From NCBI RefSeq assembly GCF_963675165.1, contig NC_087384.1, forward strand, positions 403,001 through 467,000: DNA of 64,000 nt. Reading direction: 5' to 3'. Positions 1 to 30,023 of the stretch are shown here, piece after piece; the stretch's first letter is position 1; each line of letters opens with the position of its first letter. Under the pieces are notes generated by a model. It had not been told where the DNA came from and did no database searches. It saw only the letters and a program-made list of their open reading frames with translations. Source of the stretch: Halichondria panicea. Lineage: Eukaryota > Porifera > Demospongiae > Suberitida > Halichondriidae. Both the position numbers and the translations under genes were made by a program.

Positions 1-3000
1 ATTGGCAGCTTTCTTGGAGAAATGCCCTGAGCAGTACACAATGTAAGTTTTATGCAAGCACCGCAACCTCGGTGCATATGCTAAAACTTTGATATATATG
101 TATGCAGAAACGGTGCAAGAGAAACCTTATAAGAAAGTTCAAAGTCCATAATTAATGGCTGCATTCTCATAAACAGTGCATCTCTTTCCTCACTCTTGTT
201 CTAGTGCAGAGCTAACTATTAAGTGGAATAGCACGAGTCTTAAGAAGTTCAACGTATTCAAAATTAGCCATAACTCGAGAATGAAGCATTATTTTATAAA
301 TCCATGTCGTGACTAGAACCCTATAAAAACTCTTACTTGCCCTTCATTTATCATTGAGCAGCTACAGTAGTCTATACACACACAAACACACTACTGTACA
401 CCTTGCTGCCAGGTATAATTATTAATGTGTGTTGCATCATTGCTCACAGATCACGTCCAGTTGGTCAGCAAAAAAACTCTGCTATACAAAAAAGTTTTGG
501 TACAAACAGCTCAAAAATAATTCTTCCAAGCTCTAATGCTGAGGAATACATTGGACTCTTTCTTCGTAGCACCGTTTCCCATATTGCGAACCCTAAAGGT
601 ACATGTGTCATATTATGTTTATACTACAGAACAAAATGTATTGACAATCTTGTAGGTCGGAAGGGCGGCAGCTTCTACAGGAATAATAATTGTCCAAGTT
701 GGTGGCCAAAAGATGTGGCGTTTGTTCCTTCAGGTATATTTTATAGTCATGGCAGATAGTTTCAAAATGTGTTGCTAGTTTATAATTGTTATGTATAATT
801 ATGTCATTTTGTTGTTTTTTGGGGGCCCAAAGATTATATCAATGCTGTAAACCAGAGAAAGATTGTGGCAGCTTTCTTGGAGAAATGTCCTGAGCAGTAC
901 ACAATGTAAGTAATGCCCATCAGGTTACAGATATTAATGTGTGTTGCATCATTGCTCACAGATTATCTCCAGTTGATCAGCAAAACTCTGCCTCGGCATT
1001 TGAAACTGACCAACCAGAAGACCCTGCGGTTGGTACAAAGAGAGTCAGGAGGATGCCAGGCTCAAAGATAGTTCTTCCAAGCTCTGATGTTAAGGAATAT
1101 TCTGGAAACTTTCTTCGTGACACAATTTCAAATATTGCGAACCCTAAAGGTATAAACTACGTACTAGTCTCGAAATCCAGCCGGTTCTCATTAGTAGCGT
1201 GGGAGGGAGAGAACCGTCTGGTGACTCTGGGCATACTTTTCTATCATCGGACGGAATGTTGGTAGAGTATATACATTGGAGCCTTATCCACAAGAATGTA
1301 AGATAGCTTTCACAGTTCTTTTAATTTAGTGCGCATTAAATTGTGGTTATTATCCACGCGGTTAACACATTCCTGGCTGGCAGAACAGAACGCCCAGAGT
1401 GAGAACTAATGAGAACTGGCTGGAATTCGAGACTGATGAACTGCATGCATGTCATAGAAATTTCTTTGAGTTTCTTGTAGATTTGATGATCAGAAAGTGC
1501 TACAGTAGTGAAAATTGTCCAAGTTGGTGGCCAAAAGATGTGCCTTTTTGTATTCTGTCAGGTATGGTCAGAAGTGCACAGCCTAACAGTAGATATGTGC
1601 AAAATTCGTTACTACTAAGTTATTGTGTGTGTTTTAGGGCCCACAGTTTCCGACCAGAGAAGAAAGGTATTGGCAGCTTTCTTGGAGAAATGTCCGGAGC
1701 AATACACAATGTAAGTTTTTATGAAAGCACTGCAACCTCAGTACACATGATAACACTTCTGATTTGCATGCAGAAATAGTACAAGAGAGTGGGAAAACGT
1801 TATAAGAAGTGTGCCAAAGGTTCAAAGTCCGTGGCTGCATTCTCATAAAACAGTGCAGCTCTTTCCTCACTCTTGCAGCTACCGTTCTAGTGCAGAGAAA
1901 ATCTCAAAATATGACTTTTTTAGCAGAATCTCACTGAAAAAATGTATTAAAACGTGATCGACTAGAAGCCTATAAAAGCTCTTACTTGCCCTTCATTTAT
2001 CATTGAGCAGCTACAGTAGTCTATACACACACAAGCACACTACTGTACACCTTGCTGCCAGGCATAATTATGCCTCGGTGCGCATGCGCAAGTGAGGTAT
2101 ACGGTAGTGTGTGTGTGTGTGTGTGTGTGTGTGTGTGTGTGTGTGTGTGTGTGTGTGTGTGTGTGTGTGTGTGTGTGTGTGTGTGTGTGTGTGTGTGTGT
2201 GTGTGTGTGTGTGTGTGTGTGTGTGTGTGTGTGTGTGTGTGTGTGTGTGTGTGTGTGTGTGTGTGTGTGTGTGTGTGTGTGTGTGTGTGTGTGTGTGTGT
2301 GTGTGTGTGTGTGTGTGTGTGTGTGTGTGTGTGTGTGTGTGTGTGTGTGTGTGTGTGTGGACTATTTCAGCTGCTCAAGGATCAATGAAGTGCAAGTAAG
2401 AGTTTCTATAGGCTTCTAGTCATGTTTTCTTGGCATGCTATTTGTGGATTTACAAAATAAAGCTTCGTTCTCGAGTTATGCCTAGTTTTGCTTACTTAGA
2501 ATGCCATTGCAGCCTTTTTAGAAGAGTCCGTAGCAAACCTTGTTCACCGAGTGTTGCTATTCTACTTAGTAGTTAGCTCTGCACTATAACGCTAGCTATT
2601 GGTAGCTGCAAGAGTGAGAAAAGAGCTACAAGGCTCTGCTGACTTGTAGCCATTAATTTTAGACTTGAACTTTTGGCATCGATCGTTTTTAACAACAATC
2701 ACGGTCGATCATTACCCACTATTTGAGTTTCCCTGCGATTGCATGCAAAAATGTTCATCATGATAAATGTGTGTATAAAAGCTAGCTATTAGTAGTTTTA
2801 TGTTATGTAGCTTTGGCACCTCCACCGAGGCATCATACAGTTATATGTATGTTGCATTATCGCTCACAGATCACGTCCAGTTGATCAGGACCAGCCAGAA
2901 GACCAACTCATTGGTACAAAGAGAGCCAGGAGGATGCCACGCTCAAAGATAGTTCTTCCAAGCTCTGATGCTGAGGAATATTCTGGAAAAATCCTTCGTG

Positions 3001-28347: not shown

Positions 28348-30023
28348 ATGATGTCAGGCTCAAAGATAGTTCTTCCAAGCTCTGATGCTGATGAATATAC
28401 TTTACATGCTCTGCGTAGCACAATAATAAGTATTGTGAACCCTAAAGGTGCGTGTGCATGATTGTTTAGTTATACAGGCAGACATTTATTGGGCTTTGTA
28501 GGTCGGAAGGGCAGAAACATCTACATCAGTGGTAATCGTCCAAGTTGGTGGCCAAAAGATGTGGCATTTTCTTCTGTGAGAGGTATGGTCAGAAGTGCAC
28601 AGCCTAACAGTGGATATGTGCAAAATTCATTGCTAGGCTAATCATAATCGTTTCATTGTGTGTTTTAGGGAGCAAGGCTATCGCAAATAGTATCACTGTT
28701 GGAAACATGAGAAATGTCCTGAGCAGTACACATTGTAAGTTTTATGCAAATTGATGTATTTGATTGTACCCTTTTCCTCACTCAATCCCACCTCTTCCCC
28801 ACTCGTTGGTGATAAGCAACCAGTAAGAGAAGTCAGCCCACAAAGTTCCTTTGAAAGTGATCAAGAAGAGCCTGTAGGAATGAACCAAACACCACCTACT
28901 GGAGCTAATCGTACCCGATCAGTTGGAGCCACAATCAGCACTGCTGCACAACATGCAAGCCCAAAGCTTATCCTACCCAGCTCGTGTGCAAATGACTACT
29001 CTCCACCTGATCTCATTTCGCTAATTCAAAAGATTTTAAATCCCCAACGTAAGTTGTTTGTGTTGTCTGATAACCATTGACATGAATGTTTTTTGCAGGG
29101 AGAAACTTCGTATACTCCAGTGCTAATCGTCCCAGCTGGTGGCCGACTGATGTAACATTCATTAGGGCAGAAGGTACACAGCAGTCGACGTGCGTATGCA
29201 GGAGTAGATGAGAGTACATGTACAGTGTTGAACTCAATATGAAATTGCAAACTGTGGTCTGTGGTTTGTCAATCAGCATGACTGTGCAATTTCTGGAAGT
29301 GTTGCTAACATAACAAATTAGTACTGATCACTTAGCCTCCTTCACAGCCTCTCCTTTTTCTGTTCTTTGTCCCACAGGTAAGAATTGGAGGAACAAAGAA
29401 AGAAGGAACGGTTCGTTTGTTCTTTCTTTGTTCCTCCAATTCTTACCGTATTTTATCACTCTTATCTAGTCTTGACTTATGTATTGTACAATGAAAAACC
29501 ACTGTTTACTAAAGAGTATAAATGTGTTCCACTGACCAGAAAAGAGACCCTAAGGTCTATAGAACTGCCTCGGGTACAAATCTAAAAGTTTCTCTCATTA
29601 TAGTGTAACTGCTTCTTCAGGTATGAAAGCTAAGGACAGGATAAAAGTATTGACAGCTTTTCTGAAGAAATGTCCTGAGCAGTACACAATGTAAGTAATG
29701 CCCATCAGTTTACAGATATTAATGTGTGTTGCATCATTGCTCACAGATCACCTCCTGTTGACCAGCGAAACTCTGCCTTAGAAGATAAAACTGACCAACC
29801 AGAAGACTCCATCATATATATTGATGATAGTTCAAATGAATCTGATTCAAGTGACCCTGAAGACTTGTTGAATAGTCTAGAGCAGCACCTTCTGGATTCT
29901 AGGAAAAGAAGGCTCGAGGCTGAGAGGAAAGTTGAGAAGCTGAGTGAAGAAAACAAGCGTCTAAAAAAAGAAAAGAAGTCCATAGGTTCTATTGTGAAAC
30001 GATCGCGACTCCATCATTACTAG
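28348..30023 (+). pseudogene. Array gene 9: N-B-C, broken by deletions
   Basis: Start ATG at 28348 (MMSGSKIVLPSS). Remaining exons: 28348-28447, 28502-28582, 28669-28734 (N), about 28781-29048, 29099-29173, 29621-29690 (B), 29747-30023 (C). The N third exon has lost the stretch encoding RK.LAAFL, leaving a length of 66 bp that no longer fits the phase. Directly after it the B first exon has lost its acceptor AG and first codons (ctca joins ctcaatccc). Both WWP cores have Arg for the conserved Cys. The C exon is intact. This is the last, decaying unit of the array, facing HGH1 tail to tail. Confidence 0.7.
29377..29447. repeat. Perfect 28-bp inverted repeat with 15-base loop
   Basis: Arms 29377-29404 and 29420-29447 (beginning ggtaagaattggaggaac) are exact reverse complements. 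It lies in the B2-B3 intron of gene 9, where no paralogue has it. Confidence 0.9.

Follow-up and report, generated by a model that had tools for sequence, protein, structure and literature searches.

How a sponge genome comes to hold a dense row of genes built from one repeated module, and what the encoded proteins might do, is the question raised by a 64,000-nucleotide stretch of Halichondria panicea DNA (contig NC_087384.1, positions 403,001 to 467,000; herein referred to as the window). The original prediction for its first 30,023 nucleotides was of nine tandem genes with 34 copies of a CPSWWP.DV.F domain, each gene a string of two to seven modules closed by one coiled-coil exon, in a layout matching no named animal gene family. 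We find that the array constitutes an apparently undescribed animal gene family and that its module is probably, though remotely, related to the DNA-binding domain of NRF1. The reading that we tentatively favour, at just short of an even chance, is that of a tandem family of nuclear, paired proteins, each with several diversified NRF1-type DNA-binding modules.

The module is encoded by three exons in the order C, A and B. Exon C gives the peptide KIVLPSSDxxEY....LRxTISRIxNP (in a looser form KIVLPSSD..Y....L..TI..I.NP), exon A gives ..NCPSWWPKDVAF.. (pattern xNCPSWWPKDVAF) and exon B gives ..RKILAAFLEKCPEQYT; their end phases are 1, 1 and 2, respectively, and the cassette is therefore frame-neutral, with GT-AG sites that are mostly clear at the module exons. 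Between positions 1 and 30,023 there are 33 exons with CPSWWP.DV.F-like peptides, encoded by TGGTGGCC, and one WFP variant (24628-24702, SWFPTDV instead of SWWPTDV, in the second module of gene 15), which together make up the 34 predicted copies. Nine terminal coiled-coil exons (herein T exons) end at 4623, 9455, 12520, 14921, 19990, 23288, 25421, 27761 and 30023, in agreement with the gene models given below in placing nine genes in the window, and the last of these ends falls exactly where the array had been said to stop. The genes contain, in order, 6, 6, 3, 3, 7, 4, 2, 3 and 2 modules (36), of which 34 lie inside the window because two, both belonging to the first gene, precede it; the window has 35 B exon 3' ends, the first from a module that begins upstream. 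Modules are of two types, N and L, the latter with a shorter loop downstream of the WWP exon, as in the following examples:

2946..3328, plus strand: N-type module (conserved part of exon C 2946-3030, A 3079-3159, B 3238-3328), aligned to human NRF1 residues about 197-272
3580..4278, plus strand: L-type module (C 3580-3664, A 3716-3790, B 4209-4278)
4335..4623, plus strand: T exon with an acidic linker, a coiled-coil-like segment and a basic tail (..NSLEQHLLDSRKRRLEAERKVEELTEEVKRLREERKFIGSIVKRSRLH)

The array extends well beyond the window, which lies on the contig labelled C8 (C1, C3, C5 and C13 are other contigs of the same genome). A scan of C8:330001-403000 and the window with exon profiles delimits a locus of ~97 kb and about twenty genes, with its upstream limit at C8:336133; the predicted extent is correct for the window part, which is the 3' third, but the first window gene starts outside (at about -929) and the locus, about three times larger, extends upstream. 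It contains 17 plus-strand and five minus-strand T exons, one of the latter split in two, and 95 complete modules, whose C, A and B exons follow one another in sequence. The predicted range of two to seven modules is right for the window genes, and one upstream gene has nine, the largest count. A search of the same genome returned 191 matches, and among the matches listed all lie at C8:336.8-430.2 kb. A full spliced peptide was obtained for 91 of the 95 modules, the other four being excluded from every count out of 91; 67 are N-type and 24 L-type, with mean distances of 0.10 among L-type modules, 0.21 among N-type modules and 0.40 across the types. L-type modules occupy the last position, beside the T exon, in 13 of the 17 plus-strand genes and are also internal in some genes. 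The nearest module lies in a different gene for 87 of the 91, often at the equal position, and growth of the array was therefore mainly by gene or block copying. In genes 1, 4 and 7 the last module is chimeric: its C exon is N-type, its B exon is L-type, and an exon A was not found between them; the frame survives because exon A is 1-1. In the minus-strand arm (C8:336133-348540), most N-type modules lie at distances of 0.11-0.19 from the closest module, and one T exon is broken.

NRF1 is an animal gene, and a full copy is present elsewhere in this genome (C13, E 5e-90), the sole PF10491 match there in an exon-by-exon search. When a profile of 32 of the 95 modules was compared with 177,635 PDB sequences, the top matches were to the human NRF1 DNA-binding domain (8k3d, E 7.8e-5; 8k4l, E 3e-4), and the next match after the NRF1 chains was at E 1.1. 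The alignment spans module positions 9-83 of 86 and places the P-x-WWP-x-D-I-x-W of NRF1 on the module core. Human NRF1 scores 25.4 bits, and the highest of 10,000 WWP-keeping shuffles scores 19.9. When the search is reversed, the 91 modules score a median of 11.9 and a best of 16.9 bits, compared with a median of 1.2 and a best of 13.4 among 1,817 listed WWP-keeping shuffles. Alignment of the modules to the NRF1 of the same genome with hhalign gives E 1.8e-4 at a probability of 49%. Additionally, NRF1 residues P231, W233, P235 and C269 are kept in 91/91 modules and W234 in 90/91. An AlphaFold2 model of a module with two introns read through and stops set as serine was poor (mean predicted local distance difference test score 50.2), and a Foldseek search with it against the PDB gave 15 matches, all at E 6 or worse.

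As set out in the structural account of NRF1 (PMC10810270), a separate dimerisation domain precedes the DNA-binding domain (residues 201-284), which can bind DNA alone at about 1.4 uM, enters the major groove with helix 5 and linker 2 and reads TGCGC through R206 (helix 5) and N242 and R244 (linker 2); the DNA-bound form is a homodimer held by the dimerisation domain, each chain having a single DNA-binding domain, in a binding mode that the authors termed novel. The modules resemble this domain of NRF1/Erect wing/P3A2 (human residues 201-284; 8k3d, 8k4l) in the P-x-WWP-x-(D/E)-(I/V)-x-(W/F) core, in the pattern of helix 5 and in the closing-helix Cys. They differ in that the array proteins have chains of 2-9 domains with a coiled-coil-like C-terminus, the base-contact triad is not kept, and the dimerisation domain is missing. 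Indeed, the window genes begin directly at the first module, and no dimerisation domain (residues 54-172) was found in a two-module piece plus tail, in which the best PF10491 stretch is positions 160-199 of 213.

The ratio of nonsynonymous to synonymous substitution rates (dN/dS) was estimated over 45 disjoint close module pairs, 29 of which are up to 10% apart, and gene conversion could disturb the resulting figures. For the whole module it is 0.68 (0.60-0.79), and the array is therefore not due to chance. Among segments drawn after the alignment had been viewed, the KIVLPSS core has the lowest ratio (0.15), followed by the stretch around NCP.WWP.DV.F (0.21) and the last helix (0.31); the post-core loop stands at 0.97 and the pre-WWP loop at 1.32 (1.10-1.56). 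A post hoc set of exposed helix-5 columns gives 1.41 (1.10-1.81). The core is constrained, and the loops and the contact surface evolve at about the neutral rate.

Relatives outside the array were sought with a module plus tail as query against the same genome, and 14 stretches were then scanned with the exon profiles. Weaker matches occur on C8 at 1.78-2.51 Mb and on C5, C3 and C1. Of the 13 stretches on C8, C5 and C3, 11 have only scattered, broken-looking pieces of the family and two match none of the exon profiles. Several C8 places share both their fragments and the order of these, and so look like larger copied blocks. The C1 match is an open gene with GT-AG sites, a start codon preceded by an in-frame stop upstream, and a single module whose exon end phases are 1, 1 and 2, as in the array; WFP replaces WWP, and identity to 14 array modules is 35-46%. 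Among its 36 matches in the same genome at E up to 1, four are to itself and 32 are in the C8 array. It could be the kind of gene from which the array derived, or else an old paralogue, the direction being our supposition. The features are:

C1:5176263-5178136: one-module relative, an open gene with a module and a coiled-coil-like tail, 204-residue product
C8:1.779-1.785, 2.106, 2.122-2.126, 2.349-2.355, 2.369, 2.480, 2.498-2.503 and 2.513 Mb: broken-looking family pieces (exon profiles)
C5:3150699: broken-looking family piece
C3:2710176: broken-looking family piece

A number of observations weigh against the favoured reading. With regard to kinship, the NRF1 of the same genome scores only 17.4 bits against the module profile, a value that 4 of 10,000 WWP-keeping shuffles reach; the best six-frame open reading frame of the region (module exons included) scores 13.9 bits in the reverse search among 490 listed; a profile of 15 sequences with the C1 gene in the lead matches NRF1 more weakly (E 8.4e-4); single-sequence searches missed the relation, whether from the sponge's own NRF1 domain to its genome or from a single module or the C1 gene to the PDB; and the C1 gene has no match to the PF11001, EIN3 or NRF1 families of Pfam. 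With regard to DNA contacts, R206, N242 and R244 occur together in 0/91 modules, in an alignment that is uncertain at N242 and R244, and the position of R206 is Arg in 36/67 N-type and 0/24 L-type modules, the L-type modules moreover being without the R244-D246 stretch. The NRF1 site therefore cannot be assumed as the target of the array, and the L-type modules, to judge from these residues, may read no bases at all. With regard to selection, the pre-WWP loop falls to 1.04 (0.76-1.32) in the 29 closest pairs, the helix-5 columns defined from NRF1 alone give 1.16 (0.92-1.48), which is not significantly above 1, and neither the base-contact columns (0.97, 0.65-1.30) nor all DNA-contact columns of NRF1 (0.93, 0.79-1.08) evolve faster than neutral. 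Positive selection on DNA contacts, which we had considered, was dropped on the strength of these last three sets.

Eight of the nine window genes yield open spliced products of 287-898 residues with no internal stop, linker openness being partly by construction since linker splice acceptors were picked from stop-free candidates; the repeats, frames and splice sites that had been read from the DNA are thereby borne out. All nine predicted genes are present, but gene 17 is probably a pseudogene, to judge from its damage: the B exon of its first module (about 28669-28734) has no conserved helix, and the acceptor for the following exon was looked for and not found. The genes, all on the plus strand, are:

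1..4623, plus: gene 9, start codon at about -929, before the window; six modules, four in the window; 777 residues in total, no internal stop; window exons by exon/splice model 1-42 (end of a B exon), 450-598, 656-733, 833-905, 962-1149, 1481-1561, 1638-1710, 2870-3030, 3079-3159, 3238-3328, 3378-3664, 3716-3790, 4209-4278, 4335-4623
4875..9455, plus: gene 10, six modules (N N L N N L), open frame of 896 residues, 19 exons: 4875-4974, 5037-5126, 5251-5341, 5398-5585, 5639-5719, 5803-5893, 5962-6251, 6302-6376, 6530-6599, 6648-6802, 6851-6931, 7200-7290, 7673-7890, 7937-8017, 8105-8192, 8290-8501, 8554-8628, 8786-8855, 8912-9455
9800..12520, plus: gene 11, three modules (N N L), open frame of 535 residues, 10 exons: 9800-9899, 9962-10051, 10175-10265, 10690-11108, 11239-11313, 11400-11490, 11541-11851, 11902-11976, 12111-12180, 12235-12520
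12863..14921, plus: gene 12, three modules (N N L), open frame of 468 residues, 10 exons: 12863-12962, 13016-13105, 13173-13293, 13392-13561, 13584-13688, 13786-13873, 13924-14240, 14292-14366, 14534-14603, 14651-14921
15333..19990, plus: gene 13, seven modules, 22 exons, open frame of 898 residues; C-terminus LRKERNFLL, the usual IVKRSRLHH tail not being present
20702..23288, plus: gene 14, four modules (N L N L), 13 exons, open frame of 600 residues
23697..25421, plus: gene 15, two modules (N L), seven exons, open frame of 287 residues
25775..27761, plus: gene 16, three modules (N N L), 10 exons, open frame of 442 residues
28348..30023, plus: gene 17, two modules, no full splice model

Within these genes, a long intron of gene 9 has a pure (GT)126 run (2107-2359), and coding tandem repeats occupy a linker or terminal exon of gene 10 (8951-9289, 84 bp x 4) and of gene 11 (10749-11040, 120 bp x 2.4). 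A stretch whose beginning is TATA-like (cctataaaa..ctcttacttgcccttcatttatcattgagcagctacagtag) recurs, as judged by eye, in gene 9 introns at about 320-390, 1970-2030 and 2370-2425 (reverse), and may represent a copied promoter or a short mobile repeat. Past the array, from 31.1 to 57.6 kb, genes that look ordinary by eye include an HGH1-like (minus, 31138-31845), an ST7-like (plus, 39796-41331) and an NDUFS8-like (minus, 57180-57593) gene. The proteins of the window genes have basic KRAR/KRSR patches, the KRAR type ahead of many modules, and acidic, serine-rich linkers; their C-terminal segment is heptad-like as judged by eye, and in Pfam the tails weakly match the coiled-coil families ATG16, DUF4164 and tropomyosin.

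The main rivals to the favoured reading are an old, uncatalogued family and intracellular protein recognition. The first, which would not exclude the other readings and which we consider possible but rather unlikely, holds that the family is an ordinary, widespread animal one without curated models and that the array is its normal lineage-specific expansion. The single-module relative on C1 speaks for it, as do weak PF11001 and NRF1 matches that suggest an old superfamily: in a two-module piece, PF11001 (YDR124W-like) reaches 29.9 bits (cut-off 31.3, E 6.5e-7) over the WWP and the last helix, EIN3 (PF04873) 17.8 bits (cut-off 27, E 0.0023) around the WWP, and NRF1 (PF10491) 15 bits (cut-off 23.5), and among 32 modules searched singly at E up to 1, 23 match PF11001, five EIN3 and five NRF1. 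Against it, no Pfam model is above its cut-off for the two-module piece plus tail or for the C1 gene, the best single module attains only E 6e-6, and no account of such a family was among the papers listed in searches of one open-access library; other journals or unnamed protein-database entries may hold one. The predicted novelty is borne out in part, but to speak of no named animal gene family was too strong at the domain level because of the NRF1 profile match and the weak PF11001 matches. To our knowledge, PF11001 has no known function; its likeness to the module is weak and below cut-off, and the C1 relative does not share it. The likeness to the EIN3 DNA-binding domain is marginal, and kinship with EIN3 found no support, as no EIN3 chain appeared in the PDB searches with either the 32-module or the C1-led profile. 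Neither a WW domain, which the module resembles in name only, nor a C2H2 zinc finger was among the Pfam matches of the two-module piece and the 32 modules. Pattern scans of viral contigs (16 matches) and prokaryote genomes (25 matches) yielded no relatives, and PHROGs gave weak matches only (best E 0.066).

The second rival, intracellular recognition, is one that we hold to be doubtful. Here an NRF1-like scaffold would have lost DNA binding, its fast loops would bind varied protein partners (e.g., in self-recognition or innate immunity) and the chains would form multimers by way of the coiled coil. The base-contact triad, complete in no module, contact columns no faster than neutral and the acidic linkers fit such proteins, and fast loops with array growth also suit immune arrays. 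However, the mean net charge of a module is positive, at about +3.9 (the human NRF1 fragment has +6), R206 is retained in over half of the N-type modules and KRAR-type patches lie ahead of many modules. A repeat expansion that is mostly decaying, selfish or derived from mobile elements, with little function, appears improbable: the broken pieces on C8, C5 and C3, the damaged gene 17 and the three chimeric last modules without exon A would fit it, but eight window genes splice open (given the choice of linker acceptors noted above), dN/dS is below one across the module and 0.15-0.31 in the segments picked as conserved, and no transposase or integrase family is among the Pfam matches of the two-module piece, the 32 modules and the C1 gene. 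Least probable is a protein that is secreted or at the cell surface and has disulfide-bonded modules, for although two Cys recur in most modules, the first is Arg in 26/91, on which ground the disulfide-bonded module was rejected, the second is invariant and common to NRF1 as C269, the M(M/L)PGSKIVLPSS-like starts of the window proteins show no evident signal peptide, and none of the eight intact window genes encodes a 19-residue stretch of mean hydropathy above 1.55, so that neither a signal peptide nor a membrane segment is evident.

We return to the tandem family of NRF1-type DNA-binding proteins, for which the following course may be proposed. Amplification of a gene comprising one module and a coiled coil, similar to that on C1, would have given rise to genes with 2-9 modules. 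Each module, composed of helix 5, a long loop with P-x-WWP-x-D-V-x-F and a closing helix, would be remotely related to the DNA-binding domain of NRF1, and the NRF1 dimerisation domain would be missing. In the nucleus, each N-type module would contact DNA via its loop and helix 5 and have a preference of its own, and flexible acidic and KRAR-bearing linkers would allow several modules to lie along one DNA stretch. The L-type module next to the coiled coil may have a structural or a different binding role, the coiled coil would pair two chains, and the symmetric exon phases permit modules to be swapped or lost without damage to the frame; the proteins may have a regulatory role.

An analogy lies in the KRAB C2H2 zinc-finger clusters of vertebrates, which resemble the array in their tandem genes, strings of similar modules and conserved scaffold with a variable surface; they differ from it in that no zinc finger was found in the array and the fold is unrelated, and DNA binding by the array proteins is itself presumptive. 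By this analogy one may speculate, with considerable doubt, that the lineage of this animal evolved a polydactyl DNA-reading system other than zinc fingers, in which an NRF1-type domain without its dimerisation domain is strung in chains of 2-9 with a coiled coil across about twenty tandem genes, and in which the binding loops diversify in the manner of KRAB zinc fingers. If relatives of the NRF1 domain have indeed been multiplied in tandem chains, this would be a new way of building modular DNA readers, and the array would offer a natural library of about 90 variants from which to learn what the NRF1-type fold can recognise. If the modules bind no DNA, the locus would still be a large array of an apparently undescribed family that combines a constrained core with fast loops, a pattern often linked to conflict or recognition.

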